64,000 bases of DNA from Mesaphorura yosii (Eukaryota; Arthropoda; Collembola; Poduromorpha; Tullbergiidae): positions 114,196 to 178,195 of the forward strand of contig WIXG01000146.1 in assembly GCA_009869945.1 (NCBI GenBank), read 5' to 3'. This document shows, in pieces, positions 18,901 to 62,016 of the stretch; positions within the stretch are counted from its first letter, which is position 1; each line of letters begins with the position of its first letter. Below the pieces are notes generated by a model. That model ran no database searches. It was given only the letters and a program-made list of their open reading frames with translations, and was not told where the DNA came from. A program made the position numbers and the translations under genes.

Positions 18901-21900
18901 ACTTTTGATATTCCACGAAGAAGAAATGGGCACAGTCAATAGGCGTATAATTGCAAAGCTACACGCTGCGCTGTGGAAATGTACTGCGGCTGCTCAACTT
19001 GCGAATCTAATTGTTTCAGAGACTTGGATGCGTCCACGGTGAAGATCTTCTTTTCGTATTTGGTGTTCCACTTTATTTTTATGGAAGCGGCTCTTCAACC
19101 AAATCGTACTCCTCTCCTCCCTCCTCATCTGGTGGAGGATTTGATGATGGGATGAACAATAATAATGAATCCGGAGAGACTTCACTGGGGAATGCTCCCA
19201 AATTAGGGTTCTATAATGGGAATTTTACCAGAAATGAAGTACAATTTTCACAGGTAATTCAAGAATGTTATTTCACCGTTAAACAGTATACCAATAATGG
19301 AAAGTTCTGTCGACCGCGATTCTTTTTAAATTTCAGACTGTGATTCATTATTGGGCTAATTTTATAAGACATGGGTAAGACAATGCCTCAAGTGCCTAGC
19401 GTCAGTCGGCGCGGCTTGGAGCACGACCACAACTGAGGGAGTGTTTTGTGAATTACGTATAGGAATCCAAATGACGACGGTGCCGACGGTGCCGACGAGG
19501 ATATTATTGGATCAAACATCTTGAGTGGTGCCGGCAGTGGGAACCGATTAACGTCAAGTACCAGCTTAAGTGACAAGTCTAAGTCGAAGTTTGCGGAGTG
19601 GCCAGCGTACGACCCGTTGTACAAGAAATATCTCGTCCTTGGTAAGTTATCGCAAAATTTATAGCTAGGAAATTCCTTCCGGTATTTTGGCGAGCGAGCT
19701 AATTTTTAAATGGCATGTCAAGTTACTACCTTGACAAATCAGTTCGGGTGCAGCAGCTGTTGTTTTGGACAATTTCTACATTGCATATTTCTACTGTCTT
19801 TCCAGTTTTCAGTCACTATCGATTGATTCTGACATAATGTTTATTATTTCCGCCACAGATTTGAAGGCCCGGTCAAGAACGCACTATCGAGCCCACAAGC
19901 TTTCGTTTTGGCTGCATTTGGTTCCTGACCTGATGAAAAATGGTTATGGTGTTTTATCTGGCACACACCATTTACTCAGCAATAATAATAACGGCGATGG
20001 CGAGTCTTCAGCTGGAACGCATAATTCCTCTGCAACGCCACCGCCGCCAACGATTCAACTGGTTGGACCTCCATTGGGTGTATGGGAGCATAACACTAAT
20101 AATAATATCAATGGAAAACCACGAGATCATTTCTTCCAAGGCAAGCCTATAATTTATTTTATAATGTACAATAGTATTTGGATAAGGTAAGGAATAAAAA
20201 GGGTCATTTGCGTATCAGCCGCTACCGCACCGACTGCAGCCCAGACAGAAGTGAATCGCCAGATTTTATTCTTTCGACAGCGCAATATTTTATGGCCTCG
20301 TCTCGTATTCTGATTTTATGCTTTGTAGAATTGAATTTTATTCCACAATGGCATAATTTATTCTGATTTTATGTGGCCAATTTCTGTGTGCAGGAAACTC
20401 TTCAGCGCACGAAGGGGGATCCACAGGGTCAGTCACCGGGAGTGGCGCCGGTCAAGATGGCGATGGTTATCAGATCTACTCAACTGCTCTCTCCGTCACA
20501 ATTGCGATTGGCTGCTCCCTCCTGATCCTCAACATACTCATTTTTGCCGCATTTTACTACCAGCGAGATAAAAGAAGAAATGATGCCAATTTGGCATATA
20601 TTGAAGGTAAAATTTCATCCTATTCTAAACCACGAATCATTAAAAGTTTTCATATTCCTGAACTTGTCATGTCGGTATTGAACGCTAAAGTCTGACACAC
20701 TTTCACGTTAATTGGGAGCAATGTGGAAGCGAAAAAGTTCGCGCTAAATTGCAGTTTTGTGTAGAGAGCAAGTGGATTGATTAATTTTAATCTGTGGTGG
20801 AGCAATTGAATATTTTCATTGCGAATGATGTTGAATACTACTGTTTCAGAGCTCGACAATTCGTTCTCTTCATCCGAATATAATCCTAATCCTTGCATTG
20901 TATTTGATAAACCATCAACACATTGTATTTGGTCTGCCTCTGGTGAAAGTTGTGATCAGAGAAGAACAAATCAATACCGGCCTCAATAATAAGGTACCTC
21001 GTGATTAACCACAAAGTTGGCAGTTGGCACGGTTCAGAAACTTCACAAATGAGCGAACTTAATACTTTTATTCAGGTAGAAAGAGAATAATGACGTGACG
21101 AAAACACATAGACATCATAGTTAACGGGACGTACATGTGCGTGCGTGCTATTCATCACCATGTGTGGTCGAAACCTCAGTCTCGTAGTTCATTAATTAGA
21201 GCTGTTTTCGTACTTTGTACATTACACATCTTCGGCGTGGGTTTAAAGGTTAAACCGTACTTTGTGCCTGTTAATGCCTCTAGATAACGTGCAGGCTCAG
21301 ATAAATTCTAACTGGCGATGAGGTGGTTGAAGACGAATTGATTATTGAGTTGTCAGTTTTGCAGTTTTGAATTAACTTTGGAGGAGAAAAGAAGGAAAGT
21401 GATGGCAAATGCCACTACCGATACTGCATTACAGCAGTGGATTGAATAGTTTCGAGTGAAATGACTCCGGATGTTAATATTAATACTTCACTTCAACTTT
21501 TCATTCTCTAAGTGTGCCATGAATGAAAGCGTTCGGAAATCGCATCACTTTAAAGCTTTTTGCACAATTGAATTATGCTACTAATATATTATAGTAAGAT
21601 TCTACGGCTCGACGCCTCGGCTCGAATTTTGGATAGCTCAGTCAGTGCCAGTGCAGCGCAAGTGTGAAAATCGTAACTTTCTTTGTTGGTCCACTTTTCG
21701 GAGTCACATGATATTGGCTTCTGGCCTGGTGTTACATCCGTCAGAAAATCATAATTCTTGATATTCAGCTGTTGTATGGGACTACATGTTAGATAGGATC
21801 TGCATCTGTATGGAAAGAGGAAATGCTGTGATTGTAGGTTCCAATTACTTGCAGAGTCTAAGTGACACTGACATTCGCTACTCGCGTTTACTCTTTGCCT

Positions 21901-23227
21901 TTGCTCCACTCAGGCCAAGCCGGTGACACGTAATATCATACGAAAAGCCTCCTCGTCCTAAACCAACATCGCGCAATTCAGGAAGTTATAAATCACGCAT
22001 TTTGCTTTCCTTGGAATCTAGCTGATGCTGTACTACGCAAAGTAACCACTGCGTTCTAACATGAAAGCGTAAGCGAATGGCGAGTGATTCTGCCTAGCCT
22101 ACTATCACTGACACGGATGACATTTCAAAAACAAAATTTAATATTTTCTCTGGTGATGTGCCTCACGATGTGCCATACATTTTGCATGCATTAAACTTCG
22201 ACTCGACCTCAGTTCCCCTTTGACTTACTGTTACGGCACACTTTCGTCCTTGCTTGCAGGGAACACTTCACAGCATGGTATTGTTGTAGGTGGTGGTGGA
22301 AGCGGAGGAGGAGGAAGCGATACTGGGAGTGCGACTGGCGTAGGAAGTCATAATCAGTTCCATCGTAAGGAAAACGGGCAAATTGGTCAGCTTCTGCAGC
22401 AGCAGCAACAACAACAGCAGTATCAAATCCACCATCAGCAGCAAGCCAGCCAGCATCAGATGCCAAATATATGTGGCGACCTTCCATCATTAATTCCATC
22501 TGACTGTGAACTAATTCAGACTGGAGACACATACAGCACACAGCAGCGAGGAACCCTGCGACGTCAGAAACAACATCAACAACAATACCAGCAGCAGGCA
22601 CAACAGCATCCTAATCCTTACGAAATGGCGATGCCTGATGCAATAATTGCGGCTGCCATGATGAACATGCAGAGTTTCCCACCACCGCAGCACCATCAGC
22701 AGCAGTATGCCGACGCGTATCATTCCAGCCCACACGGACGGGAGACTTATTCATCAGCCACACTTGCCACGACACCGACTGGTTCGTCAAGTCGCAGCAA
22801 TACGCTGCGGAGGTCCAGCCTGAATATGAAGGATCAGCTCCAACAGCAGGCTTCTCAGAGCAGTTGTGAGTACAGCATAGAAAGTGGGACGACGCGCAAT
22901 ACAATGCCCAGACCACCGCGAAGGTCGACCCCAAGTGTGAAGTTCAGCACGGACACATCCATTGGCGGTTGTGACGGTGCTGGTGATGTGAGTTCCAGCA
23001 ACTCTGCTAATGAGAGCATCAGCGGAGGTGCGTGCAGTTCCAAAATGTACAAACCGCAAATTCTGAGTGCATCGCAAACGAGTACACTGAAACCGTCGTT
23101 GAAAAAAAACTCAAATTACAAGTCGGTAGGAATCGGCATGAGCAGCATGCCTGTGTCGGGCTCGCCCAGTAATTCCCAGCAACAGGGAGGCAATGGTGGA
23201 ACTTGTATGGATGAGCTGAAAGTATGA
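15989..23227 (+). CDS. Neuroligin, 3' part of gene (partial, at least 9 exons)
   Basis: Neuroligins are postsynaptic adhesion proteins that bind neurexin through a catalytically dead cholinesterase-like ectodomain. Exons by splice consensus and phase: 15,989-16,182; 16,246-16,460; 16,556-16,673; 18,479-18,583; 19,020-19,253; 19,337-19,374; 19,463-19,641; 19,859-20,140; 20,394-20,606; (20,850-20,942 optional); 22,260-23,227. The first visible exon begins at the family segment [13 protein letters not shown], so the N-terminal half, including the nucleophile-elbow region, lies outside the window. Family landmarks are [28 protein letters not shown] and [17 protein letters not shown]. The stalk is rich in Gly, Asn and Ser. 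A single transmembrane helix ([20 protein letters not shown]) precedes a KRR stop-transfer and a 320-residue tail rich in Gln. The protein ends in DELKV, a possible class II PDZ ligand. Arthropods have several neuroligins; I cannot say which paralogue this is. Confidence 0.9.
20141..20393 (+). other. Non-canonical GC-AG intron in neuroligin
   Basis: The reading frame joins only if the donor is CAAG|GCAAGC at 20,140/20,141 and the acceptor is GTGCAG at 20,393. That pair is phase 1 on both sides and brings the stalk into frame with the transmembrane helix. The nearby GT donor (ATAAG|GTAAGG at 20,187) is phase 2 and would put the next exon out of frame. GC-AG introns are a known minority class, usually with an otherwise strong donor, as here. 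Confidence 0.65.
20850..20942 (+). other. Candidate cassette exon in the neuroligin cytoplasmic tail
   Basis: The segment is 93 nt, has a good acceptor (CTGTTTCAG) and a weaker donor (TCTG|GTGAAAG), and no stop in frame. It is phase 1 at both ends, like the exons either side. It would add 31 residues rich in Ser, Asn and Pro just after the membrane. Inclusion or skipping both keep the frame, the usual signature of alternative splicing. The call is inferred from sequence only. Confidence 0.4.
20943..22259 (+). other. Last neuroligin intron
   Basis: This 1.3-kb stretch lies between the membrane-anchor (or optional) exon and the large terminal exon. I see no further exon or other gene in it. 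It ends in TGCTTGCAG at 22,259. Confidence 0.6.
22392..22440 (+). repeat. CAG/CAA triplet repeat encoding polyglutamine
   Basis: A mixed CAG/CAA run in the terminal neuroligin exon encodes about nine consecutive Gln, then more interrupted Gln/His. A second Gln-rich patch lies near 22,570-22,605. The open frames on the opposite strand here are shadows of this CAG/CTG composition. Confidence 0.75.
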
Positions 23228-41309: not shown

Positions 41310-42013
41310 TTACTTACTTAAATACTTTTGCACGTCTTTGGTTTCTATTGTTGCTGCGTGTCGGTTCTTTGCTACACGAGCGGCCCCATCAATGAGATCG
41401 TCCATAAACTGATCAGCGTGAGCAACCAGAAGCTTCGGCAACTCTTCATCCCAAAGCAGGTTCGGGTCGATGTGCATGGCCAGTTTCTTCAGTAAATCTT
41501 GACTCAATATCTGTTTATGAATAGAATGGTTATTCCCTTCCAATCAATAAATTGTTATCGCTCTTCTACCGAACAAAACGTGCAACTTACGTTTTCGGGA
41601 CTCGCTACTACTGTCAGGATTGTCGGGGTAGGTGGCTTAGTTTCTTCCTGAAAAACTGAAGCATCCAGAGCATCAGCTACAGCGTCAGGCAGTGGTGTTC
41701 GACCTTTGCCAGGGCTAGGCTCACCAGGCTGCTCCAACTGCGGCTGTTCTTCGGCATTTGTCGCCATTGATTCATCAATTCCAAGACCCGTGCTCGGGGA
41801 CGATTCCATTTGTTCTGGAACGTTTCTTGGGCTAGGCTGCTCCTGGTCTTCACCATTTGTCGCCACTGATTCGCCAACTTCCGATTCCTCGTTCGAAGAT
41901 GACTTCATTTGTTCAAGAAATGCCCCGGGGTTAGGCTGCTCCTGATCTTCGATATTTTTCGTCATTGAGTCGTCAATGTCCAATTCCCCACAGGATGATG
42001 TCTTCATGTTCAT
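41310..42013 (-). CDS. Taf12: TFIID subunit TAF12 (histone-fold protein)
   Basis: TAF12 is a histone-fold subunit of TFIID and SAGA that pairs with TAF4 in the nucleus. Exon 1 (42,013 to 41,591) encodes 141 residues, acidic and rich in Pro, Glu and Ser, made largely of three imperfect repeats of about 33 residues. An 80-nt intron (41,590-41,511) joins in phase 0 to exon 2 (from 41,510). Exon 2 holds the histone fold: ILSQDLLKKLAMHIDP (first helix), then DQFMDDLIDGAARVAKNRHA (long central helix) and TIETKDVQKYL (last helix), matching the TAF12 pattern of 'DVQ.HL' at its end. Read straight through, translation stops at 41,310 after KYLSK, giving 207 residues. The tail usual after the last helix is then missing. 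A donor-like AAGTAAGTAAG sits at this stop, so a further exon down to about 41,134 is possible. Confidence 0.8.
41720..42007 (-). repeat. Three tandem coding repeats of about 99 nt in TAF12 exon 1
   Basis: The translated unit of about 33 residues recurs three times with the pattern ...D/ESMA/T-x-N-x-ED-QEQP-xP...EQM-x-SS. The copies differ at many positions, so the duplication is old or fast-evolving. The domain is acidic and probably disordered. Confidence 0.6.
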
Positions 42014-43004: not shown

Positions 43005-43010
43005 TTTATT
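43005..43010 (-). terminator. Poly(A) signal for the DHQS-DHQD gene
   Basis: TTTATT on the plus strand reads AATAAA on the minus strand, about 65 nt past the stop codon. It marks this as a eukaryotic transcription unit. Confidence 0.55.
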
Positions 43011-43073: not shown

Positions 43074-45038
43074 TCAGGCTCCAATTCTACCAATAATCTG
43101 TTCTACCGTGAGTTGTCCAGGAGCAGCTGCTGGCAGATCGGAGTGCGTCACTGGGGTGAGATACCGATTTCGGACTCGAGTAATCTCGCCAATAGTGCCG
43201 ATGTTTACTGCAATCAGCGGGAATCTTGAACACTGGTCTTCATTTGCCCAATATTTTGCTGTGAATCGTTCCAGTGACGAATTGTCTTCTTCTGTGCCAG
43301 CATTTGAGACTATTTTTACGATATTTCCAAGCGCCTGTCCTTTCTGAATGCACCTCTCAACCTCAGCTCCATTCCAGTCGATCGGCTCTTGCAGTGAATG
43401 ATATGAAGCAATTATTTTGGATTTGTAGGAATGCTGCTTCTTAACTTGCAGTAATACGCCAAGAAGAGTTGGTGAAAGATTCATTTGAACGTCAATTATT
43501 TCACAGCCGAGATGGAAGCCCAGCAGGTAAAGTGTCAGCAGAATATGAGCATGAACATTGTCGTCGATTGTTCCACCCTCTGCGACGGTTCTTGGAGTGT
43601 AGATAATCGGCAGGTGTGGTACGTGCTTCTGGACTATGCGAACTTGGTCTACCACATGCGAAAGGTGCTCGTACAGCGATTTGTTCGACGAAAATGTGAA
43701 GTCAGAATGTCCTGAACGTTGAAGTAAGTCAACTCGGAGTTCCACCGCATGAACTCCTCTCGTCAAGCGTTGAAGGTCTTCTGCAACTGGAGTCAAATCT
43801 GGTAGCGCTAGACAAAGGAAGAATGTTGGAGATGTTGTCTTCGGCAGAGGAATGCAGTCCAAGTTCCTAGGCGCTGTGGCGTTTCCAAAGACTTTCTTCA
43901 AATTCAGGATGGTAAAAGCAGTAAGCTCCTCCGTGAGCACTCTCTTGACCTCTTCCGTTGGAACTGGAGAAGCTCTTGGCTGAAAAGTCTTCCCAAACTC
44001 TGTCAACAGAACAATGCGAATGTCGCCGCTAGAATTCTTCTTGTCGACCCCAATTAGCTTCATTATTGCCTCTACAGTTGGCTGAGAGAGGTCATACCAA
44101 TCTGGAAGGGCATCGCCCAAAGATACTGGCAGCTTGTATCTCAGCAGTGTCGATCGCAGACGGTCAAGTGTTTCAATTTTGCAGTGTCCAAGTGCAACCG
44201 CGATTTTTGTCTCCAGAACCATTCCAATTGATACACACTCTCCATGCAACAAAGTCGGAGAAAGAAGGGCTTCGATTCCATGCCCGATTGTGTGACCAAA
44301 ATTGAGCAGATGCCGCAGGCCGGAGTCTTTACCGTCTTGCGACACAACGTTCGTTTTGTATAGAATTGCGGCTGTGACTGTGTTGAGGAGATTTTCCGAC
44401 CGAATTTCATCTGGCTCAACGAATTCACCCTTCTCCAGTCTTTCAAAATCGTCGCTGTTGCTTGTTGCAGCCATTTTGATGATTTCAGCCATGCCATTGT
44501 AGAACTCTCGTCGTGGCAACGTGCGGAGGAAACTAAAGTTGATATAATTTCTTTTTGGAAGCCAAAATGTGCCGATCAAGTTCTTTCCGTGCGAAGTGTC
44601 GACTCCATTCTTGCCGCCGATGGAGCTGTCAACCATTGCCAGCAATGTTGTTGGGATGTGCACCAAGCTGATTCCGCGCAGGTATGTCGAAGCGACGAAC
44701 CCAACCAAGTCGCCAATGACACCACCACCGAGCGCGACGAGACATGACTCCCGATCGCATTGATGCCCAAGCAAGAAATCTTCGATGCTTTCTTTGGTGT
44801 CTCGAGATTTGCTGACCTCACCAGGCGGAATCACGAATGACAAGATTCTTGAAGTTCTGCCGACAGCTGTAATGAAATCTGCCTTTAGCTTCTCCAGGTA
44901 AATGGATGCAAGGTTCGCATCGGTCACAATAATCACGGTCGAATAACGAAACTGAGCGCTGAAATCGGTGGGTATGTCCAAGTCGTAACCAATTACCAGG
45001 TTGTAATTTTCTTTTAAGTTGGACAAAATGTGCTCCAT
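43074..45038 (-). CDS. Bifunctional 3-dehydroquinate synthase / type I 3-dehydroquinate dehydratase
   Basis: The protein of 654 aa has no intron and would catalyse shikimate-pathway steps 2 (DAHP to 3-dehydroquinate) and 3 (to 3-dehydroshikimate). Residues 1 to about 375 are an AroB/DHQS domain. It has GGGVIGDLVGF (NAD-binding glycine-rich loop), IPTTLLAMVDSSIGGKNGVD, and three zinc ligands at Glu185 (GMAEIIKMA), His249 (FGHTIGHG) and His265 (LLHGE). Residues about 405-654 are a class I AroD domain with VELRVDLL, His547 in IIASYHS and the Schiff-base Lys575 in NIVKIVSNA, ending RYLTPVTHSDLPAAAPGQL as AROM dehydratase domains do. In AROM these domains are first and fourth; here they are joined directly and the EPSPS, kinase and SDH domains are absent. 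All catalytic residues look intact. No transit or signal peptide is seen, so it should be cytosolic. Its partner lies head to head at 45,794. Confidence 0.93.
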   Translation of the reverse strand: MEHILSNLKENYNLVIGYDLDIPTDFSAQFRYSTVIIVTDANLASIYLEKLKADFITAVGRTSRILSFVIPPGEVSKSRDTKESIEDFLLGHQCDRESCLVALGGGVIGDLVGFVASTYLRGISLVHIPTTLLAMVDSSIGGKNGVDTSHGKNLIGTFWLPKRNYINFSFLRTLPRREFYNGMAEIIKMAATSNSDDFERLEKGEFVEPDEIRSENLLNTVTAAILYKTNVVSQDGKDSGLRHLLNFGHTIGHGIEALLSPTLLHGECVSIGMVLETKIAVALGHCKIETLDRLRSTLLRYKLPVSLGDALPDWYDLSQPTVEAIMKLIGVDKKNSSGDIRIVLLTEFGKTFQPRASPVPTEEVKRVLTEELTAFTILNLKKVFGNATAPRNLDCIPLPKTTSPTFFLCLALPDLTPVAEDLQRLTRGVHAVELRVDLLQRSGHSDFTFSSNKSLYEHLSHVVDQVRIVQKHVPHLPIIYTPRTVAEGGTIDDNVHAHILLTLYLLGFHLGCEIIDVQMNLSPTLLGVLLQVKKQHSYKSKIIASYHSLQEPIDWNGAEVERCIQKGQALGNIVKIVSNAGTEEDNSSLERFTAKYWANEDQCSRFPLIAVNIGTIGEITRVRNRYLTPVTHSDLPAAAPGQLTVEQIIGRIGA

Positions 45039-45793
45039 TGTATGACTTTACTGTGGGCAAGCCTGCAGTTCAGTGCTTGATGTTTGGTCGTATAAGACAA
45101 GGATTTTCAAAAGCTTAATAAGACAGGCTCATCATCATCACCATCACTGCTTCACAAATCGTTTACGGACCTTTGACCTCGTACTTGTTGACGCGTCTAT
45201 AACGACGGCCTTCTCATCACGGCAGTCTAGCCAAATGATCATGTATTCAATGCGTGCATACTGCATTGTTAATTACCTAATTTAGGCCTTTACAAGAGTC
45301 CAAGCAGGAGAAGCGAGTTTGTTCGCTTGCTGGATGAACTACTTCCAGCCTTATGCCGAGAAGCTGCATTTAGCTGCTTGCTGGCTGGGTTTTAATGAAT
45401 GTGCTTTCGAGACATGCGCTTGTGTTCACTGCAAGCTTCATTCATAACACAGATTAAGACGATGTAAGTGCAACCTGCTTGCTTATCAAAGGGCAGAGGT
45501 TGAGAACCCACTTCTTCAGAACCATGTTGTGCATTCGCTTTAACACGTCTGTCTTGGTTCTGTTGATTTGTAGTGTGCTTGTCTCAATCAATCCAGCCTT
45601 GTTTGAATTTTCTCAACGCCCGATATCAAAAACTTAATTAAGTAGGACATGAGCAAGAATAAGGACATAAGACTTAGTGATAACACATTTGGCATTTTCA
45701 GAACGACGGGAAGCTTGCGACTCTTCACAGCAGTAGTGCTTTTGTGCTCAGCTTGCGGTATTTCGGCAAATTTTTGACAATTCCAAATTTTTC
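45039..45793. promoter_or_regulatory. Shared bidirectional promoter region of the two shikimate genes
   Basis: These 755 nt separate two divergent start codons whose products act in one pathway. No other gene is seen between them. No convincing TATA box or initiator can be named by eye. Shared regulation is inferred from the arrangement. Confidence 0.5.
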
Positions 45794-48700
45794 ATGATGG
45801 AGTATCCAGATTTGAAAAGTGTTCAGCTGTTTGCAAGACTAAAATCTTCTTCGCCTAAAACTGGAGACTTGATTCACGTCAATGTTCCCGGTTCCAAGTC
45901 AATCACCAACCGGATTCTGCTGATTGCTGCGCTTGGGAAGGGCACCGTTCACTTGACAAACTTCTTGAAATCTGCCGACACGATTGCGATGTTGAGTGCA
46001 ATGTCCAAGCTCCAAATTGCCACCTTCGAGTACGATGAAAGCAGTGTTGACTGTAAACTAATTGTAAGAGGAAATGGAGGCGCTGTGAGTGGCACCTTGA
46101 AGGACAATGTTCTGCACGTGAACAACTCCGGCACGGCCGCCAGGTTTCTTACCACGTTGGCGGTAGTCATGTCTGGCAAATATCGGCAACCGATTCATGT
46201 CACAGGAAATGAGCAGATCAAGAGAAGACCGATTGATCCTTTGGTCGATGCCCTTCTCACAAATGGGTGCAACATTCAGTACGAGGAGGGTGTTGGAGCC
46301 CTGCCACTGTGTGTGCAGACTTTTGAGGGATTTGCTGGTGGCCACATAAAACTGGACGCCCAAATTTCGTCGCAGTACGTGTCGTCAATTCTAATGTGTG
46401 CACCTTACGCGAATGAACCCGTTACACTCGAGCTGTGTGGACACGTCATTTCAAGGTCGTATATTCATATGACCCTTGGTAAGTTGTGTCGTTTAACACT
46501 TTCGAAGATATCCACAGCAGCTGTTTTACAATTTGTTATTTTCTGCAGCTTTGATGAAGTCTTTTGGAATCGAAGTCACACAAGTCGAGGACAACATTTA
46601 CCACATTCCGAAAGGCATTTATCAGAATCCTTCAGCGTTTGTTATCGAACCTGATGCATCAACCGCCACCTACCCGATGGCTGTGGCTGCCATTATGGGA
46701 AGAGCAGTCACAATCCCACATCTTGGAACTGTTTCCATTCAAGGCGACGCTGGATTTGCTCTTGGCATCCTACAAAAAATGGGCTGTGAAGTCACACAAA
46801 CCGATGACGCAACGACTGTGCGTGGCCCACCGATTGGAACGCTGAAATCCTTCGGGCAGGTCGACATGGAACCCTTAACCGACACCTTTCTCACCGCAGC
46901 GTGCCTCGCAGCCGTGGTCAACGACGGCGTCTCAACAATTACCGGAATTGCGAATCAGCGAGTGAAAGAATGCAATCGAATTTCAGCGATGGTGAGTCAA
47001 CTGGCGAAATTCGGCGTCCACGCTGAGGAACTTGACGATGGGCTGAAGATTTTTGGGCAAGATTATGCGAAGATGAAATGTCTTGGCTCGGTGCACTGCT
47101 TTGATGATCATCGCGTCGCAATGTCGTTCAGCGTCCTTGGCAGCCTGACGCCTTGCATCATAAGGGATCGATTCTGTACGAATAAAACGTGGCCAGAATG
47201 GTGGGATGTGCTCAGCAATACCCTCGGCATGGAATTAAGCCCAATCAACATAACAGAGTCCCAAGCCTCTTTGTTAGCATCGGAGGCAAAACTCAACGAC
47301 GATTATGAACATCCGCAGCCCATTTTAAAAAACCAGACGATACTTTTGATTGGAATGCGAGGTGTCGGGAAGACGACTGCTGGTCGCGCGGCTGCTAAAC
47401 TACTTTCAAAGAATTTTGTGGACATGGACGAAGAATTCAGTCAAGTGTATAAGATGTCAGCTAACGAATACATCAAATTAAATGGATGGGAAGCGTTTCG
47501 TAACCTCGAACTTCACGTTCTGCTAAACACTGTCAACAGATATCCAAGAGACTGCATCATCGCAACTGGTGGCGGCGTCGTGGAAGCAGAAGATGCCAGA
47601 GCGATGCTGAATAAGATAAATATGGATGCAAACTCGTTCCTTGTGGTACACGTTAAGCGAAAGCTACAAAAGATTGTGCAGGATCCGAGCTTCAAAACTA
47701 AAATTGCGTACGCTGAAGACGTGACCACCGTTTGGGAAAGAAGGAAGCCTTGGTACGAGAAATTGAGCTCGAAAGAATTCTACGTCACGGATTCGGGAAA
47801 CAGCGCGGCCTTTGGAACTGAGTTCGATGAAATCTTCCAGCAAATGGCTTCCTTCATTCGAAGTTCCTACGGTGGGGGTCATCTCACTGAATTCTCCCAA
47901 ACCACATCGCCAACTCTACCAATTTATTCAATCCTTTGTGATCCATTCACTGCAACTACAAAAGGCCTGGAAGAAAATTGGCGCTGTGAGTTGAAAAAAT
48001 CCTCAAGCCTGTACAAGATGCAAGAGCTCAGGTTTGTGATACCCGAAAACCGTATCCAGAATGAGGAAGAAATTAAAACAAGGTTGGAAGAACTTGGTGA
48101 GCATTACTTCTTGTTGAAGCGAATCTCCAACTTGCCGGTTGCTCTGACGTGTGCCGCGGCAGAGGGCTCTTTCCAAACGTCACGTGCGTCTGCATTCGTC
48201 GATTCACTTCTTCAGATGGGTTCGAAGTGGAATGTCGACCTCGTTTGCCTCGATGAGCAGGTGAAACTTCATCTAAGCGCCGCGGCGAAAGAATTCATTG
48301 CACATTCAAACTTAAATATCGCAACTTTATACGGCGGTCCGGATTTGAATACAGTTTTAAGCAAGATCAATTACGACATCATAGAAAATGAAAATACAGA
48401 AACAGGAATCAGTCTTCAACAGCCGGCAGAAGAAATTATTCACGTCGACAATGAGTCAACGTTCGCGGGTCGATACCTGATGCCAACTACAGTTGTTTCT
48501 GCAGATCAACTCATCACAAAGCTCAAGGCGATCAACATGTTAGTGGTTGAATGCAACAAAATGCAGCCCATGAATTTTTACTTGTTCGGCTCACCAATTT
48601 CCAAGTCAAAGTCTCAGCTACTTCATAATACCGGGTTTGGTGCAGTTGAACTTCCGTACAAATACCAGAGATTTGAGGCGTCGCAGATCGAATCGGCGGG

Positions 48701-49466
48701 CATCGAGGCCCTTATCAAGGACACTGCATTCGGTGGCGCGAGCGTTACAATTCCGCTGAAGGAGAAGATCGGGGACTTCCTGGATGAAATTACGGATGCT
48801 GGATCAGCGATTGGTGCAATCAACACAATCTCCAAAAGTCGGGCCGGCAAACTCGTGGGCGATAACACAGACTACATTGGAATGCTCAGAGTGCTTCAAC
48901 CTATGATACGGGCCATCGAAGAAGGTGCAAACCATCCTAAGGAAGTACGCGGACTGATAATTGGCGGTGGTGGCACGGCTCGAGCAGCAATCTACACATT
49001 CCTATCCATTCCACGAATCACACAGATTACCATCGTTAATCGGAGCGTAGCCAAAGTTCAAGCTTTAATCGAAGAGTTCAGGCAAAAGCCGACAACAAGG
49101 AAGGATGTGACCTTCGAAGCTGATAGTCTGGAGTCGCTCCACTGCGTGTGCTTCGATGATTTGCATCATCCCCACTTCATCATCTCCACAATTCCAGCCG
49201 ACGCGCAAGTCAGGTGCAAGTTTTCGAGGCAACTATTCAAGCAGACGTCCGCTGTGGTCGAAATGGTGTACGGTATCAAAACACCATTGCTACAAGCCGT
49301 CGCAGACTTCAACACGAAAAGTCAGTCGCAAGTGGCTGTAGCCACTGGGGCTCAAGTTCTGATTGAGCAGGGCTTGCGACAGTTTGAGATCTGGACAGGT
49401 CTCACTCTCCCGTTTGAGGAAATGCGAGATGCTGTAGACAAGGCATTTGAATCAGAGAGTCAATGA
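45794..49466 (+). CDS. EPSP synthase / shikimate kinase / degenerate DHQ dehydratase / shikimate dehydrogenase fusion
   Basis: Exons 45,794-46,478 and 46,549-49,466 join in phase 1 across a 70-nt intron to give 1200 aa. EPSPS (residues about 12-455): NVPGSKSITNR, NSGTAARFLTT, GNEQIKRRPID, DASTATYPMA, GIANQRVKECNR, DDHRVAMSFS, NKTWPEWWDVL. Shikimate kinase (about 488-668): P-loop GMRGVGKT, FVDMDEEF, WEAFRNLE, ATGGGVVE. Residues about 710-895 align by order and scattered matches with the AROM dehydratase (NLPVALTC, RYLMPTT) but lack its His and Lys. Shikimate dehydrogenase (about 900-1195): GSPISKSKS, VTIPLKEK, NTDYIG, NADP loop GGGGTARA, final GAQVLIEQGLRQFEIWTG. The domain order is that of AROM minus DHQS. 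The three intact domains cover steps 4, 5 and 6 to EPSP. Chorismate synthase, the next enzyme, is not in this window. The intron interrupts EPSPS at HMTL|A. Confidence 0.93.
48009..48555 (+). pseudogene. Decayed type I dehydroquinate dehydratase domain inside the fusion
   Basis: This segment stays in frame and is translated, but has lost function as a dehydratase. It sits where AROM carries AroD. NLPVALTC corresponds to the LPI.YT.R strand, QMGSKWNVDLVCLDEQ to the 'G...GCEFIDVE' strand, and GRYLMPTT to the 'NRYMTPVT' end. At the site of the catalytic His (IIASxH) it reads NIATLYGG, and no Lys stands in the strand that should carry the Schiff-base residue. It may survive as a structural spacer between kinase and dehydrogenase. 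Confidence 0.75.
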
Positions 49467-49639: not shown

Positions 49640-49645
49640 AATAAA
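49640..49645 (+). terminator. Poly(A) signal AATAAA for the EPSPS-SK-SDH gene
   Basis: AATAAA lies 174 nt after the stop codon. It supports a polyadenylated eukaryotic transcript. Confidence 0.5.
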
Positions 49646-50071: not shown

Positions 50072-50874
50072 ATGCGGACCGCTGGTGTGATTCTGCTGGC
50101 AAAGCTGATTGCTTTCGTCTTGTTATTAAACGTTGTCTCTGCTGGCCAAGTTGATTACACGGACTGTGGTAAGATTCGTTCCCATTTCCAATACTTTGTA
50201 TGTTCGTGCAAATTTTGTAACTATAAAATGCAACATTTGCGTTAAACAGGATCAAAGGCCAACATCACAGAGCTCAGAGTGACTGGTTGTACAACACAAC
50301 CATGCATCCTCTACAAAGGAGATAGTTACGACGTTGAAGTTGATGCGATCTCAAGTGAGTTCCGCGTTCGTTTATACCTTTGCTTTCGCGTATGCGTAAT
50401 TTGCAAAATTAAACGTAAAAGGCAATAAACTAACGTTTGTGTGCAAAATTATAGGCTCGTCAAGCAAAAAGCTGCCATACAAAGTCACAATCAAAGTAGT
50501 TGTGCCAATAACGCTACTCAAAGGAAACGCATGCGATGTGCTCTCTAGAGGTTCTTGTCCTGTTAAAACCGGCGATGAGTTCACGTACAAGAATACCATC
50601 ACCGTCCAAAGCGATTATCCATCGGTAAGCAAGCAACCGTCGTCTGTTCTCTATTACAACTCGGCTAATGGCGCACTGCTAATGATCTTATTTCGTACGA
50701 CAGCTTCATTCCAAAGTGACTGCAAAGGTGCTGGACGACAGAAATAATGTACTTATCTGTATTGTTCTGGATGTGGAAATCAAGAGCAAGTCAAGGAAAA
50801 GTAACGAGTATTGGGAATACGTTCTCAGACGTCAGAAGGGCCTGGCTAGTGGTCTTTACTATTATCAGGTGTGA
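50072..50874 (+). CDS. NPC2-like ML-domain secreted lipid-binding protein
   Basis: ML-domain proteins of the NPC2/Der p 2 family bind sterols or other lipids in lysosomes or extracellular fluid; arthropods have expanded sets used in sterol traffic, immunity and chemoreception. Four exons, 50,072-50,168, 50,250-50,354, 50,455-50,624 and 50,704-50,874, join in phases 1, 1 and 0 to give 180 aa. Residues 1-25 are a signal peptide (hydrophobic LIAFVLLLNVVSA). The mature part has the family cysteines: YTDCG, GCTTQPCILYKGD (the CxxxPC.l..G motif), ACDVL...GSCPVKTGDEFTY ('C.G..CP...G'), and LICIVLDVEIKS. The last 25 residues, EYWEYVLRRQKGLASG onward, extend beyond the usual end of the fold. Start chosen as the first ATG before the signal peptide. 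The specific ligand cannot be told from sequence. Confidence 0.85.
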
Positions 50875-51046: not shown

Positions 51047-52357
51047 CTAAAAGTCGCCTAAATCAGACTTTATATTCTTTACAATTTCTCGTCGCTTGAT
51101 GTGCGTTACTTTTTCCATTCTTCGATCCAGATTGCACTTTGGCTTAGGTGGTACTTCATACACAAAATTGTATCCAACCTTGAATCCATTGATCGTTATT
51201 CCTTCAACAGGAACTGATTTGCAGTGGACTCTTGGCATTCCATAATAGCTTCCACTTGTTTTAGAATTCCTGTAGGCTTTGTTTTCCACACTTCCCACGA
51301 GAGTCTTCACGAATCGATGTGCTTTCGTATCATGAGGTGCGTCATCCGAGTCTGCGGCAGTTGTAATGCTTTCGAATACTTGAACGCTTGCTGAAACAGT
51401 AGGGGCTGGTAAGGTTGGAACGATGCAGAAGGCTGTGAAGTATGAAATTACGACTTTCTCCCCAAGGTGGCTGTAATTTGGAGGGCGAAACACGAATTTT
51501 AGTCTGAATCTTTGTGGTTGGTGCGAAAAGATTAAAGGCAGTTGAAAGTCGTGAAAGAGTTGCTGCCCATCCACGTTGAATTCCACATGAAATGGAAATG
51601 AAAACTTTTCTCGCATGTCGAATGATGTGAATCCAGATTTTGTAAATTCAGGAATGAGCAATAGTGTATGGTCTTCCTCGTCACATGTGGTTCCTGGCCC
51701 AAAGTAGTTCAAGCTATGCGTTTTCATGTAGCACAAGTCGTTCCCGTGAAACGTGTCGCCATGCTTGTCAGTGTGAGAAAGATTTTTCGAGTACAATTTT
51801 GAAACATCTCTGCCAAAATGTTGATCGATGAGATTGTCAATTGCTTTCTCGAATTTTCGAACACCGTTGAAATGCAATTGAATCGATTTTGTCAGCGGCT
51901 GAACGGTAAGCACGTTTTTCCAGCTAGCCTGTTCTCTTAATTCTTGTGTCACACTCAGTTTCTCCATTGAGACTCCAAAGCAAACCATTCGGTCTGGTTC
52001 TAGTTCGATATCCGAATCAAAATTCGACGGTGGTTGTCCAGTATTCGGTTCAATGATGACTTCTTGGGCAACATTCCACCAGTCGAGCTGTGAAATCGAC
52101 ACCGGATACTGAAGCGACGACGAGTTCAACGATTTCGCATTGTAAATGCGTTGCAGATAGTACGAAAAAGCGCTGGCGTCATCACTGACTGATAAGTTGA
52201 GTTGTTCGCCGAATCTCTTGGAAATTCTGTTCATGGTTCTTCGTCGAGCTTGTTTGTGTGCTTTGTCCAGAGAGCGACTGCACTTTTGAGGAAGTTCTTC
52301 TTCAGCCTTCTCGGGCCAAGCAGATTGGGAGCCGCCGTCCTCGTCCATGTTGAACAC
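51047..52357 (-). CDS. Unrecognised intronless protein, paralogue A (436 aa)
   Basis: I do not recognise this family. The single-exon frame encodes 436 aa, with no signal peptide or membrane helix. The N-terminus is charged and polar (DEDGG; KQARRRTMNRISKRFGEQL), the C-terminus basic (HIKRREIVKNIKSDLGDF). The middle half is rich in alternating hydrophobic residues, as in a beta-sandwich: LLLIPEFTKSGFTSFDM, FPFHVEFNVDGQ, LPLIFSHQPQRFRLKF. The same blocks recur in the neighbour at 53,318-54,715, so the two are tandem duplicates on one strand. Shared blocks include GFTSFDM, FPF/CPF-x-x-EF-x-VDG, H-Q/H-PQR-x-RL and R/T-RREI-x-x-NIKSD. Divergence between copies is high except at these blocks, which argues for selection on the protein. 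It could be a lineage-specific family or a fast-evolving known fold. Confidence 0.75.
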   Translation of the reverse strand: MFNMDEDGGSQSAWPEKAEEELPQKCSRSLDKAHKQARRRTMNRISKRFGEQLNLSVSDDASAFSYYLQRIYNAKSLNSSSLQYPVSISQLDWWNVAQEVIIEPNTGQPPSNFDSDIELEPDRMVCFGVSMEKLSVTQELREQASWKNVLTVQPLTKSIQLHFNGVRKFEKAIDNLIDQHFGRDVSKLYSKNLSHTDKHGDTFHGNDLCYMKTHSLNYFGPGTTCDEEDHTLLLIPEFTKSGFTSFDMREKFSFPFHVEFNVDGQQLFHDFQLPLIFSHQPQRFRLKFVFRPPNYSHLGEKVVISYFTAFCIVPTLPAPTVSASVQVFESITTAADSDDAPHDTKAHRFVKTLVGSVENKAYRNSKTSGSYYGMPRVHCKSVPVEGITINGFKVGYNFVYEVPPKPKCNLDRRMEKVTHIKRREIVKNIKSDLGDF

Positions 52358-53290
52358 TACTGGTCTGGATATTGTGAACTTAATTTATGACTTTATGCAA
52401 TGAATTTGCAACGAACTAAATAACTGCAGTGTTCAGTTAAATTCTAAAATGGTAATTGTGTAAAACTTATCAGTCTTTAGCAGGCAGTAATTGCAGGCAC
52501 GAACACGAATGACTAGAATGCTCCGTTGCTGTCAGGCTGGCGTTGTGACTTGAATTGTGGTTCATTCCCCGCAGCAAAACTTCTATTTATGTGGCATGAA
52601 TTGCTGACACTGAATAATACATAAATCGCTTGCTTTCGCATGTGAATTGAACGAATTAGTGACGAAGGAACGTTTAGTTCAAGTTCGGCTTCGTATTTGC
52701 AAATCGATGTGATGCGATGCGCATTAAAGTTAGTATGAGTCACTACTCTCTGACAGTCAATTGCGACTTTTGCGACAGGAAAACGTTAGATGTAATTTAC
52801 ACATGGTTTTTACCAGAATTTTACGGTACTACGTGCATTCACTGAACTGTTCCGGACGTCTAGAGTTGGGATTGGTATCAGATGGGACCTATATTTATTT
52901 TGCACAAAGTTCTCTTAAAAGGAAACGAGAAATTGGTGCTGATGCAATCTTCTAGCTTAACTTCACGGAGGCTAAACGATTGATAATAATCCGTAATCCC
53001 ATCATATCAGTGGCAATTGGGATTAAAATTCTAATGAAATATTGAAATAAGTGTGATTCACACCGGTCAGGTCGATGGGTCGTTTATTTGGTGGCATTCA
53101 AGGTCTTAAACTGTTTATTTCACGGGCGCCATTCAGTGTGATCACATTCAAGATGCTGTTTTGACTTCTTTCAGTAGTGACTTTTTTTATTGGTGGAATA
53201 ACGTGAGTACGCTATAAATGCTTTCCTAATGCCATTTTAGTGGACGTTAACGGAAGTTATACCAGGATTAGGTATCACAGAATTATCACA
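52358..53290. other. Intergenic between the two unrecognised paralogues
   Basis: No exon is recognised. The stretch contains the presumed promoter of paralogue A and the 3' end of paralogue B. Short open frames here lack any family signature. Confidence 0.45.
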
Positions 53291-53317: not shown

Positions 53318-54715
53318 TTAGTAATATCCTAGTTTGTAATCATTCCAATCAGATTTAATATTGAACTTAATTTCCCGGCGAGTACGCTGCCTTGAGCGGT
53401 GATTGTCTACCCTCAATTCGGTGTTTGGTTTGGGCTGAATCTCGTAGATGAAGTTGAATCCAATGCCAAACCCATCATAGCGTAAGGTTTCGAATGGAAC
53501 TGAACCAAAACGGAGCCGCCTTCCCGTATCGAAATATCTGCCATTAGAGTTGTCGAGAAGGAGGGCGTTCATTAGGCGCTCGGCCTCAGTCGTTGGCCCC
53601 GCAGAGTCCATTTTCTGCGGGGCAAAATTTGTCTCGAACAGATTGACGCTTGCTGAGATCGATGGAATGGGAAGGACAGGAATCACGCTGAACACGGTCA
53701 AAAACGACAAAACTACAATCTGGCTGTCGTCGGGAAGATCAAAAAGGAACACCAGTCGCAATCTTTGTGGGTGATGCTGAAACGTTAATGGCAATTCCAA
53801 TTTGTGTGACAGCCAATGTCCGTCCACTGCAAATTCAAATTGAAAAGGACACGCGAAGCATTCTTTCATGTCGAAGGACGTAAATCCTCCATGTTTTGAG
53901 AGTCTGGGAATCAACACGAATGAATGTTCGTCCTGATCAAAGAAGACTTTTCGCCAGTCTCTTCTCCAACCGTGCGGTATGCCCAGATCAATATGCCGGA
54001 CCTCTTGAATGCATTCACAGGCCTCTACCTTAGTTTCCGTTGAAATTGAACCATCGCCGTCAGGAATGTCGTCCACGTATAAAGCTGTGGCACCGGTCCT
54101 TGTTCCACTGAGGTGCGTCTCGATTAGCTTTTCAATTGCGGCTTGGAACCAACGAACTCCGGTGAATTGCAGTTTCATGGACTTCAGGATTGGTCTAAGC
54201 GTGACTCCGTACTGATGATGAAACCAAAAAAGTGGGAAGCTTCTGTTGGGTCGAATCAGCTGAACTTCGTCCAGGACTTCAATGGAGGTGTAATTGCACG
54301 CATTCGTTTTGCTTATTCTCTCGTCAGTTCCAAATTCAACATTTCGCTTGGATCGGATATCTTGAACGCGCCGTTTTTTGTAGGAATTAAGAGAATGATG
54401 TCCCCAGCTTGTTGGGGAGTTGTTGGCAAAGTAGAGTTGTTCGAGATCAAAAGATGCTTGTGGTGAATTCTTGGCAATGTCGAACACAGCTTGGAGTTGA
54501 TTTGCGAATCTGTGCGAATTCCTGTTGAACGTGCGCCGCTTGCTATTATCATCAGATGAGCTGTACTTTGTTGGGAAATTTTCTTCGACGAATTCTAAGG
54601 CGGATGTACCTGCTCTAGCCATGACAGATTTGATGAAATTATGAAATTGAAGCCGAGAACCGAAAAGGGTGAACTTTTCTTTGAGTTTAACTTTTGCAAC
54701 TTTTGACAGCTGCAA
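53318..54715 (-). CDS. Unrecognised intronless protein, paralogue B (465 aa)
   Basis: This is the tandem partner of the 51,047-52,357 gene, also without introns. It encodes up to 465 aa. The first ATG (54,715) and a second in-frame ATG at residue 31 (MARAGTSALEF) are both possible; the first gives a Lys-rich leader. Shared blocks with paralogue A in the same order: a NRNSHRFANQL-like N-terminal basic patch, SMKLQFTGVRWFQAAIEKLIETH (A: SIQLHFNGVRKFEKAIDNLI), FVLIPRLSKHGGFTSFDM, CPFQFEFAVDG, QHHPQRLRLVFLFDLP, SASVNLFE, and GFNFIYEIQPKPN (A: GYNFVYEVPPKPK). No signal peptide, membrane segment, zinc finger or catalytic motif is visible. Function is unknown. Confidence 0.75.
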   Translation of the reverse strand: MQLSKVAKVKLKEKFTLFGSRLQFHNFIKSVMARAGTSALEFVEENFPTKYSSSDDNSKRRTFNRNSHRFANQLQAVFDIAKNSPQASFDLEQLYFANNSPTSWGHHSLNSYKKRRVQDIRSKRNVEFGTDERISKTNACNYTSIEVLDEVQLIRPNRSFPLFWFHHQYGVTLRPILKSMKLQFTGVRWFQAAIEKLIETHLSGTRTGATALYVDDIPDGDGSISTETKVEACECIQEVRHIDLGIPHGWRRDWRKVFFDQDEHSFVLIPRLSKHGGFTSFDMKECFACPFQFEFAVDGHWLSHKLELPLTFQHHPQRLRLVFLFDLPDDSQIVVLSFLTVFSVIPVLPIPSISASVNLFETNFAPQKMDSAGPTTEAERLMNALLLDNSNGRYFDTGRRLRFGSVPFETLRYDGFGIGFNFIYEIQPKPNTELRVDNHRSRQRTRREIKFNIKSDWNDYKLGYY

Positions 54716-60691: not shown

Positions 60692-62016
60692 ATGAAGTCG
60701 ATTGCACGTCTTCGCGTGTTGATGATTGTTTACACTTTCATTGAGATTGCAATTCGCGAAAGTTCTGTGGTAAGGGAATTTCTCTACTCAGCCTGTTAGA
60801 CTCCTGCGAGATAGACTCATGTTTACCATTTCCTTAACAGGAAGCTGCACCCCCCCTGCTTTCTGGACACAAGTATTTTCCCATTCTCGCTTTGCTCGGA
60901 CTTGGATCGACCAATGCGGACAACGGACATGGCTTGCATTCGGCAATTCCGGTCGAAACACGAAGCCTTGACCAAATGTACCAAGCAGCACTAGCGGAAG
61001 GAGGGACTCTCGTCGTATACGCTGGTGGAGACGTTCCCAACCAACAAGACGGAACGAAAACCGCATTTATGAAACGGTTTCCAGGAATCAACATCGAGAT
61101 CATTGTCGATTTCAGCAAAAATCACGGACCGCGAATCGACTATCAGCTGGTAACAGACAGCGTTGTATTTGACGTAACAACTCTACAAACACTTCAGGAC
61201 TTTCCACGCTGGAAGAAGAAAGGTGCCTTGCTAAAATACAAACCACGGGGCTGGGACCAAGTATACGATGCATTCAAAGACCCTGATGGTGCATACACTG
61301 CGTTCCACATTTTCAAGTTCAGTAATTTGGTGAATGTGTATCGAATGCCGAATGCGTCCAGTTGGCCACTTGAAGCTCATGATTACTTGAGACCAGAACT
61401 CAAAGATCAGATTGTCATCACGTACCCGCACGACGACGACGCGATTTTGTTCTGGTTCAGTCAGATTGTGAACAAGTACGGGTGGGGCTTCGTGAATCAA
61501 CTACAGAAACAGAATCTCACGCTGGTGCGCTCCACGCAGTTTCCGTACAACTTCGTGGCGTCTGGACGTCTTCCCGTTACAATGTTATCAGAGGGCGACT
61601 TCAATGCACCGGCTGGGAGCACAACACAATTCAGCATTCCCAAGAACGATCCGTTCATAACGTGGCCACAAACAGCGGCCATTTCTAAATTCACCAAGCA
61701 TCCGGAAACTGCCAAGCTGTACCTCAGCTGGTTGCTCGACAAGGACAACCAAATCAACAGCTGGTCAGTGAGGAAAGATGTGCCGCCACCAAGCGGCTGG
61801 AAATCCATCTGGGAGTATAAAAATACGGATCCCACGGCATTTGGCAAATTCATGATGGATCGAGAAGCTATTGAGAGATTCAAAGTGCAGATGAGCCTCA
61901 TCTTCGGGGAAGTTCAAGGCGTCTCTCCGACAGGGCAGCTGGGGACGAATCCAACCCAGGCAATCATGCCATTCGTCAACCCGTTCAATTCTAGTCTTCC
62001 GTCATGCGTAGCTTAA
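60692..62016 (+). CDS. Secreted type-2 periplasmic-binding-protein-fold protein (bacterial/fungal type)
   Basis: Exon 1 (60,692-60,769) and exon 2 (60,841-62,016) join in phase 0 across a 71-nt intron, giving 417 aa. Exon 1 alone encodes most of a signal peptide (LRVLMIVYTFIEIAI). The mature protein resembles family 1 extracellular solute-binding proteins, like Fe(III)/polyamine/thiamine ABC-transporter receptors and their secreted fungal relatives. Features are EGGTLVVYAGGD and AFMKRFPGINIEIIVDFS (strand-helix-strand start of lobe 1), VFDVTTLQTLQDFPRWKKKGAL (hinge region), and AAISKFTKHPETAKLYLSWLL near the end. In bacteria such proteins deliver solutes to a membrane permease, but animals lack that transporter, so here it would be an extracellular binding protein of unknown ligand. 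The signal-peptide exon and intron show it is a working host gene. Confidence 0.82.

Follow-up and report, generated by a model that had tools for sequence, protein, structure and literature searches.

Two intact genes arranged head to head (43074-49466) in a 64,000-nucleotide stretch of the genome of the collembolan Mesaphorura yosii, referred to here as the window, jointly encode the five activities of AROM. The 93-Mb assembly to which the window belongs also encodes the two remaining steps, in the form of a class II DAHP synthase and a chorismate synthase. As judged from sequence, seven steps from simple sugars to chorismate and one more to prephenate are encoded in the assembly, and I put the probability at about 0.72 that they form a shikimate pathway which functions and belongs to the animal's own nuclear genome. 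The loss of this pathway is a textbook animal trait and one reason that Phe and Trp are essential.

A divergent gene pair with five AROM activities

The features of the gene pair and its surroundings are listed in Table 1. A first-pass annotation had proposed that the five AROM activities are spread over two divergent genes, and this is borne out by Pfam and NCBIfam domains lying in intact frames. The minus-strand gene contains, according to Pfam, the N-terminal and C-terminal domains of DHQ synthase (E 4.1e-44 and 7.9e-35) and a type I DHQ dehydratase (E 9.9e-40). Its synthase scores 355.2 bits with TIGR01357, above the curated cut-off of 305, while its dehydratase exceeds the gathering score of PF01487 (137.5 vs. 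22.2) and falls under the cut-off of NCBIfam TIGR01093 (126.3 vs. 139.3). The plus-strand gene encodes EPSP synthase, shikimate kinase and shikimate dehydrogenase. The EPSP synthase of the spliced protein scores 390.6 bits with TIGR01356 (aroA; cut-off 287.25), and AROM chain 6hqv aligns without a break over the splice junction. The kinase exceeds the gathering score of PF01202 (97 vs. 22.1), with its best NCBIfam kinase model (75.5-76.1) under the cut-off of 161, and the top model for the dehydrogenase is that of the AROM type, TIGR01809, at 191.3-191.8 bits against a cut-off of 196.

Table 1. Features of the gene pair and its flanks, in window coordinates.
Feature	Position	Strand	Remarks
TAF12 histone-fold exon	41313..41543	-	animal flank; E 2.1e-10
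AATAAA 3' of minus gene	43005..43010	-	possible poly(A) signal
Minus gene (DHQ synthase + type I DHQ dehydratase)	43074..45038	-	one exon, single open frame, 654 aa
Type I DHQ dehydratase part	43832-43077	-	
DHQ synthase part	45038-43929	-	aa 1-370
Intergenic stretch	45039..45793	.	755 bases, without relics of lost domains
Plus gene	45794-49466	+	two exons, 1200 aa
Exon 1, EPSP synthase N-terminal half	45794..46478	+	
Intron	46479..46548	+	70 bases, GT-AG (GTAAGT...CTGCAG)
Exon 2, EPSP synthase C-terminal half	46549..47228	+	
Shikimate kinase region	47304..47846	+	
Spacer in DHQ dehydratase slot	47847..48569	+	241 aa, without recognisable domain
Shikimate dehydrogenase, AROM type	48570..49466	+	including stop codon
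AATAAA 3' of plus gene	49640..49645	+	possible poly(A) signal
ML-domain exon	50439..50747	+	animal flank; E 4.7e-7

Among solved relatives of both genes, AROM chains 6hqv and 7u5s, which I take to be those of Chaetomium and Candida, rank first. Every active domain is present once, as had been claimed, in a tblastn search of the whole window. The further claim that catalytic residues are in place held with one exception: the residues regarded as catalytic can be seen by eye in the domains of both genes, except in the lid motif of the kinase, which reads TKIAY here and TRPAY in 6hqv. The stretch between the genes is possibly a promoter shared by both, and relics of lost domains beside the pair, sought by tblastn in the window, gave only chance-level matches. 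No tRNAs were found in the window, nor did Rfam match anything there or in seven loci.

Three metazoan flanks had been named, two of which, TAF12 and the ML-domain gene, are recovered as exons on either side of the pair. The third, neuroligin, was not confirmed: its sole sign is a transmembrane segment resembling that of neuroligin, a Pfam scan of three nearby frames gave no domain in two of them (22157-23224 and 19735-20187), and a plus-strand motif scan below 22 kb was empty. The GC3 values of the gene pair (0.52 and 0.48) compare with 0.45-0.55 in five neighbouring frames.

The domain order of the plus gene is AROM-like, as first described, with a spacer between kinase and dehydrogenase. 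Global alignment of the spacer with the DHQ dehydratase of the minus gene gives z 2.19 (8 of 300 shuffles equal or better) and local alignment z -1.1; global alignment with two fungal DHQ dehydratase domains gives z 0.22 and 0.09. An HMM built from five sequences scores it at 1.6 bits, matched by 2 of 400 shuffles (258 gave any score), and hhalign found no signal, 35/60 and 36/60 shuffles being as good. These comparisons are suggestive at most of a decayed copy of DHQ dehydratase.

Remaining steps in the assembly and beyond prephenate

A chorismate synthase elsewhere, on which the annotation had made the synthesis of chorismate depend, is encoded on contig C54, in two exons separated by a 65-base intron, between a UBA/cullin-binding gene and a C2H2 zinc-finger gene. 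It scores 416.3 with TIGR00033 (curated cut-off 212.2), and the solved structures ranking top, 7rca and 1r52, are presumably yeast enzymes. One zinc-finger sequence of the assembly appears to be Blimp-1-like and, together with receptor frames, suggests an ecdysozoan, perhaps an arthropod. DAHP synthase and chorismate mutase, for which a search of the assembly had been suggested, were both found, on contigs C441 and C150.

The class II DAHP synthase consists of four exons with introns of 68, 79 and 61 bases, and its neighbours are lipase, arrestin and Put_Phosphatase genes. Four PF01474 pieces lie above the Pfam cut-off, the NCBIfam score (TIGR01358, 436.1) is under the cut-off of 614.7, and 25 residues are missing relative to 5uxm. 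GC3 is 0.82 and 0.71 in its exons vs. 0.68-0.78 in three neighbouring frames. The contig as a whole is GC-rich, and its assignment to the same animal is therefore unproven. A search for shared repeats linking the pathway contigs to one another found none.

The chorismate mutase is of the gamma class (TIGR01806, 97 bits, cut-off 74.15), with P450 and M48_N protease genes within about 5 kb. By eye, its likely start lacks a leader. Upstream of it is a frame with a leader-like start (L038:2164-2415) that could be its leader exon, in which case the mutase would be secreted. The yeast/plant-type mutase model TIGR01802 had no match in the assembly, in a search where no positive control responded. A third PF00275 match (C87), considered as a second EPSP synthase, proved to be MurA-like and was rejected.

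No match was found in the assembly to TrpE/PabB, prephenate dehydratase, prephenate dehydrogenase or class I DAHP synthase. The search for PheC by PF00497 returned 23 matches at E<=0.1, of which four were examined (L041, L042, L047 and L048); three of them have glutamate-receptor domains and the match in L047 is only weak, and on these four PheC was rejected as the next step. Because these four matches are receptor-like or weak and neither TrpE/PabB nor the two prephenate enzymes were found, Phe/Tyr as the end product is unproven. Since enzymes were found neither past prephenate nor towards Trp and folate, the route is more likely to supply Phe/Tyr than the full set of aromatics. The animal probably makes neither Trp nor folate.

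Function, origin and alternatives

In the proposed pathway, the class II DAHP synthase would make DAHP, the minus gene DHQ and 3-dehydroshikimate, the plus gene shikimate, shikimate-3-phosphate and EPSP, and chorismate synthase the chorismate that the mutase would turn into prephenate. Phenylpyruvate may then arise through some further enzyme or partly by the known spontaneous decay of prephenate, from which host enzymes would give Phe and Tyr. Most likely, the pair goes back to an acquired AROM gene of the fungal type that underwent duplication and then complementary loss of domains. This gene would have come from a fungal-like eukaryote as a single five-domain gene and doubled head to head, each copy keeping what the other lost, and the divergent pair would work as one split AROM. 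I give about even odds to the fuller account, that the animal is again able to make chorismate and, via prephenate, Phe and Tyr de novo, with genes gathered from several donors into its nuclear genome and with the split pair replacing the giant enzyme.

The genes may be real and yet repurposed, with 3-dehydroquinate, shikimate or prephenate feeding sunscreen, defence or pigment compounds, or with a mutase active beyond the animal itself, in the manner of plant-parasitic nematodes; gamma-class mutases are described as effectors in nematodes (PMC4828791). The leader-like frame upstream of the mutase and the failure to find any known Phe/Tyr-finishing enzyme in the assembly fit this reading, but all the enzymes through chorismate synthase have been kept, which is sensible only if chorismate or its product is needed, and I consider repurposing unlikely.

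Much less probable is vertical retention of the pathway from the opisthokont ancestor, without acquisition. Choanoflagellates and fungi have the pathway, with loss on the animal stem, according to PMC6040629, but retention would imply that all other animals lost it independently, the introns are few, and other bacterial-type genes of the genome (MurA and the gamma-class mutase) point to acquisition. Pattern scans of viral and prokaryotic contigs showed no close relatives.

Least probable of all is contamination or chimeric assembly, with fungal or other microbial genes misjoined to animal contigs: it has a precedent in Nematostella (PMC5709863) and the differing GC content of C441 in its favour, but against it stand the introns in the plus gene and in both synthases encoded elsewhere, the animal-type neighbours at every locus, GC3 like that of neighbouring frames, the lack of a COX1 match of any kind in the assembly, and the failure to find TrpE/PabB, the two prephenate enzymes or class I DAHP synthase, which would be expected with a microbe and whose absence makes a hidden one less likely.

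Significance and comparison with known systems

If a host-encoded pathway is indeed at work, the animal may produce part of its aromatic building blocks itself, and a nuclear, intron-bearing, complete set of genes would show that loss of the shikimate pathway is reversible, with a giant fused enzyme caught in disassembly. It would also open the question of growth without Phe/Tyr from diet or symbionts. Glyphosate is thought to be without direct effect on animal metabolism, given the loss of the pathway, and whether it hits this animal directly would become a question as well.

Pentafunctional AROM shares with the gene pair all five domains and, in the plus gene, the order EPSPS-SK-(slot)-SDH. 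It is, however, one polypeptide with five activities in the order DHQS-EPSPS-SK-DHQD-SDH, whereas here there are two divergent genes, in an animal genome and with an intron, and DHQ dehydratase stands behind DHQ synthase, its usual slot being held by the spacer. The protein encoded on C441 aligns over most of its length with 5uxm and 2b7o, which I take to be the class II DAHP synthases of P. aeruginosa and M. tuberculosis, and retains the residues regarded as catalytic; it differs in one stretch 25 residues shorter, its four exons and its animal-type neighbours. The top PDB match of the mutase is a dehydratase-mutase fusion from Janthinobacterium; the mutase on C150 differs from known gamma-class AroQ mutases in its likely start, which by eye has no leader, and in lying in a genome with genes for the pathway that would supply its substrate.

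Symbionts that carry a shikimate pathway are described from the insect Oryzaephilus (PMC8113238). The genes found here would answer a similar need for aromatic precursors, but they are apparently in the animal's own genome. Among the matches listed in the literature, mostly outside subscription papers and preprints, none announced a confirmed complete animal shikimate pathway. Starcevic reportedly claimed in 2008 shikimate genes in an animal, Nematostella vectensis. Those genes were later reported to come from bacterial consorts (PMC5709863), and the present case may therefore be the first real one in an animal. Both concern a shikimate pathway in an animal, but the genes described here have introns and animal neighbours.

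Two divergent genes for the five AROM activities

The first-pass annotation had proposed that the five activities of the fused enzyme AROM (DHQS, EPSPS, SK, DHQD and SDH) are divided here between two divergent genes, and the domains were found in both frames as claimed. AROM chains are the top-ranking PDB matches of both genes, and chance is ruled out as the source of the domain matches at the E-values obtained. The spliced plus-gene protein scores 390.6 bits with TIGR01356 (cut-off 287.25), and its splice junction is crossed by an unbroken alignment to the AROM chain 6hqv.

Features of the gene pair, of related loci and of other frames (window positions unless a locus or contig is named)
Feature	Position	Strand	Description
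Gene pair	43074-49466		two divergent genes
Minus gene	43074-45038	-	single frame, 654 aa; DHQ synthase and type I DHQ dehydratase
Plus gene, exon 1	45794-46478	+	followed by a 70-base GT-AG intron
Plus gene, exon 2	ends 49466	+	spliced gene 1200 aa; EPSP synthase, shikimate kinase, shikimate dehydrogenase
DAHP synthase	L017:7791-9336	-	four exons on contig C441
Leader-like frame	L038:2164-2415	-	hydrophobic start, upstream of the mutase
MurA-like gene	L002:1453-2904 (G000:C87, about 6939-8390)	-	483 aa, no introns
Long open frames	51050-52384, 53321-54715	-	common motif RRTxNRxSxRF (by eye)
Solute-binding-like frame	60838-62013	+	392 aa

By eye, against known motifs, DHQ synthase retains its zinc ligands and DHQ dehydratase its lysine and histidine; EPSP synthase carries KSITNR, NSGTAAR, RVKECNR and DHR, shikimate kinase its Walker motifs, and SDH the GGGGTARAA loop together with its lysine and aspartate. 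At the kinase lid the sequence is TKIAY, as compared to TRPAY in 6hqv.

The two long open frames found no significant match in Pfam and are perhaps a lineage-specific pair. The solute-binding-like frame (PF01547, bacterial solute-binding protein, 2.4e-9) has an HSP70 gene on one side and a nuclear-receptor exon on the other, and perhaps was also acquired.

The remaining enzymes and a proposed route

Family searches were run over the surrounding assembly (93.0 Mb, 1127 contigs), where the three further enzymes to which the first-pass annotation had pointed all turned up. Chorismate synthase, on contig C54 (E 1.8e-122; 416 bits, cut-off 212), comprises 453 aa in two exons separated by a 65-base intron, with 7rca and 1r52 as its top-ranked PDB chains. 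The four pieces of class II DAHP synthase join in frame to give 445 aa, across introns of 68, 79 and 61 bases (one apparent GC-AG, two GT-AG); the protein is about 25 residues short of the class II chain 5uxm, in one stretch, and scores under the NCBIfam cut-off. A gamma-class chorismate mutase lies on C150, its nearest PDB entry a Janthinobacterium dehydratase-mutase fusion.

Seven enzymes leading to chorismate are thus encoded, their catalytic roles predicted. DAHP synthase would be the entry point, from erythrose-4-phosphate and PEP; steps 2-3 would fall to the minus gene and steps 4-6 to the plus gene, chorismate synthase would perform step 7, and the mutase would carry chorismate to prephenate. 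The mutase begins MEANRAN... at its first in-frame ATG; upstream of this, at distances of 157 and 369 bases, lies the TATA-like CATAAAA. Since no leader is seen by eye, the mutase is taken as cytosolic. A point against this is the leader-like frame, which could be a separate leader exon of the mutase, or unrelated.

Exon-by-exon searches of the assembly found no class I DAHP synthase (control positive in 11 of 14 genomes) and no chorismate-binding TrpE/PabB/MenF, prephenate dehydratase or prephenate dehydrogenase (each control positive in 14 of 14); the TIGR01802 mutase model had zero matches, in the controls as well. Because TrpE/PabB were not found, tryptophan and folate are improbable products, and I infer that phenylalanine and tyrosine are the remaining candidates. 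No enzyme from prephenate to phenylpyruvate appeared in family searches of the assembly. An arthropod could plausibly use the tyrosine for cuticle tanning; PMC8113238 describes a beetle symbiont that has a shikimate pathway.

PF00275 matches only the AROM gene and the MurA-like gene in the assembly. The latter (TIGR01072, 422 bits, cut-off 393) is on a 247-kb contig with aldehyde dehydrogenase and WS/DGAT-like frames nearby, and is perhaps another bacterial acquisition. Two other loci, L047 and L048, hold long open frames that are possibly intron-poor receptors in this animal; glutamate-receptor domains were recognised at L048, and at L047 only a weak match to PF00497.

Animal or microbial DNA

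It is very unlikely that the pathway genes stem from a microbe hidden in the assembly. Of the metazoan flanks reported at first pass, TAF12 and an ML-domain gene are seen beside the window pair, whose GC3 values (0.52, 0.48) fall inside the range of five adjacent frames (0.45-0.55). UBA/cullin-binding and C2H2 zinc-finger exons flank chorismate synthase, and an M48_N protease and a P450 are found no more than about 5 kb away from the mutase. DAHP synthase adjoins lipase, arrestin and Put_Phosphatase frames, and its exon GC3 (0.82, 0.71) is close to that of three adjacent frames (0.68-0.78), one of them unnamed. GC on C441 is 0.555 and 0.513 in the first 20 kb and 0.444 at 40-42 kb; GC-rich stretches are not confined to it, since among 15 samples of one kilobase taken on other contigs (range 0.39-0.56), 3 exceed 0.52. 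C441 is putatively from the same animal as the other pathway contigs. No COX1 of any kind was found in the assembly; together with the failure to find other microbial aromatic genes, this is weak to moderate evidence against an undetected microbe. The gene pair is genuine and very probably belongs to the animal's own genome.

Relation to AROM and to other animal reports

DHQ synthase is identical to 6hqv at 160 of 337 aligned residues (47%), so it is not a near copy from that chain's fungus, the only fungus compared. Chains 6hqv and 7u5s give the AROM order DHQS-EPSPS-SK-DHQD-SDH in a single polypeptide, whereas the plus gene reads EPSPS-SK-[241 aa]-SDH and the minus gene, in opposite orientation, DHQS-DHQD. 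The spacer approximates DHQ dehydratase in length and shows one collinear stretch with it (LPVALT.AAAEGSF aligned to LPIIYTPRTVAEGG), with mixed alignment statistics; relics of lost domains were not found in the DNA flanking both genes. The simplest account of the pair, and the most likely one, is that a complete AROM gene was duplicated in inverted orientation and the two copies then lost complementary domains.

No confirmed complete shikimate pathway in any animal is among the literature matches listed, and further reports may exist. According to PMC6040629, animals lost the pathway on their stem lineage and cnidarians regained it via bacterial transfer; the original Nematostella claim is repeated in PMC3018139, the genes later being attributed to bacterial consorts (PMC5709863); and some shikimate-type genes are catalogued in a coral (PMC3750612).
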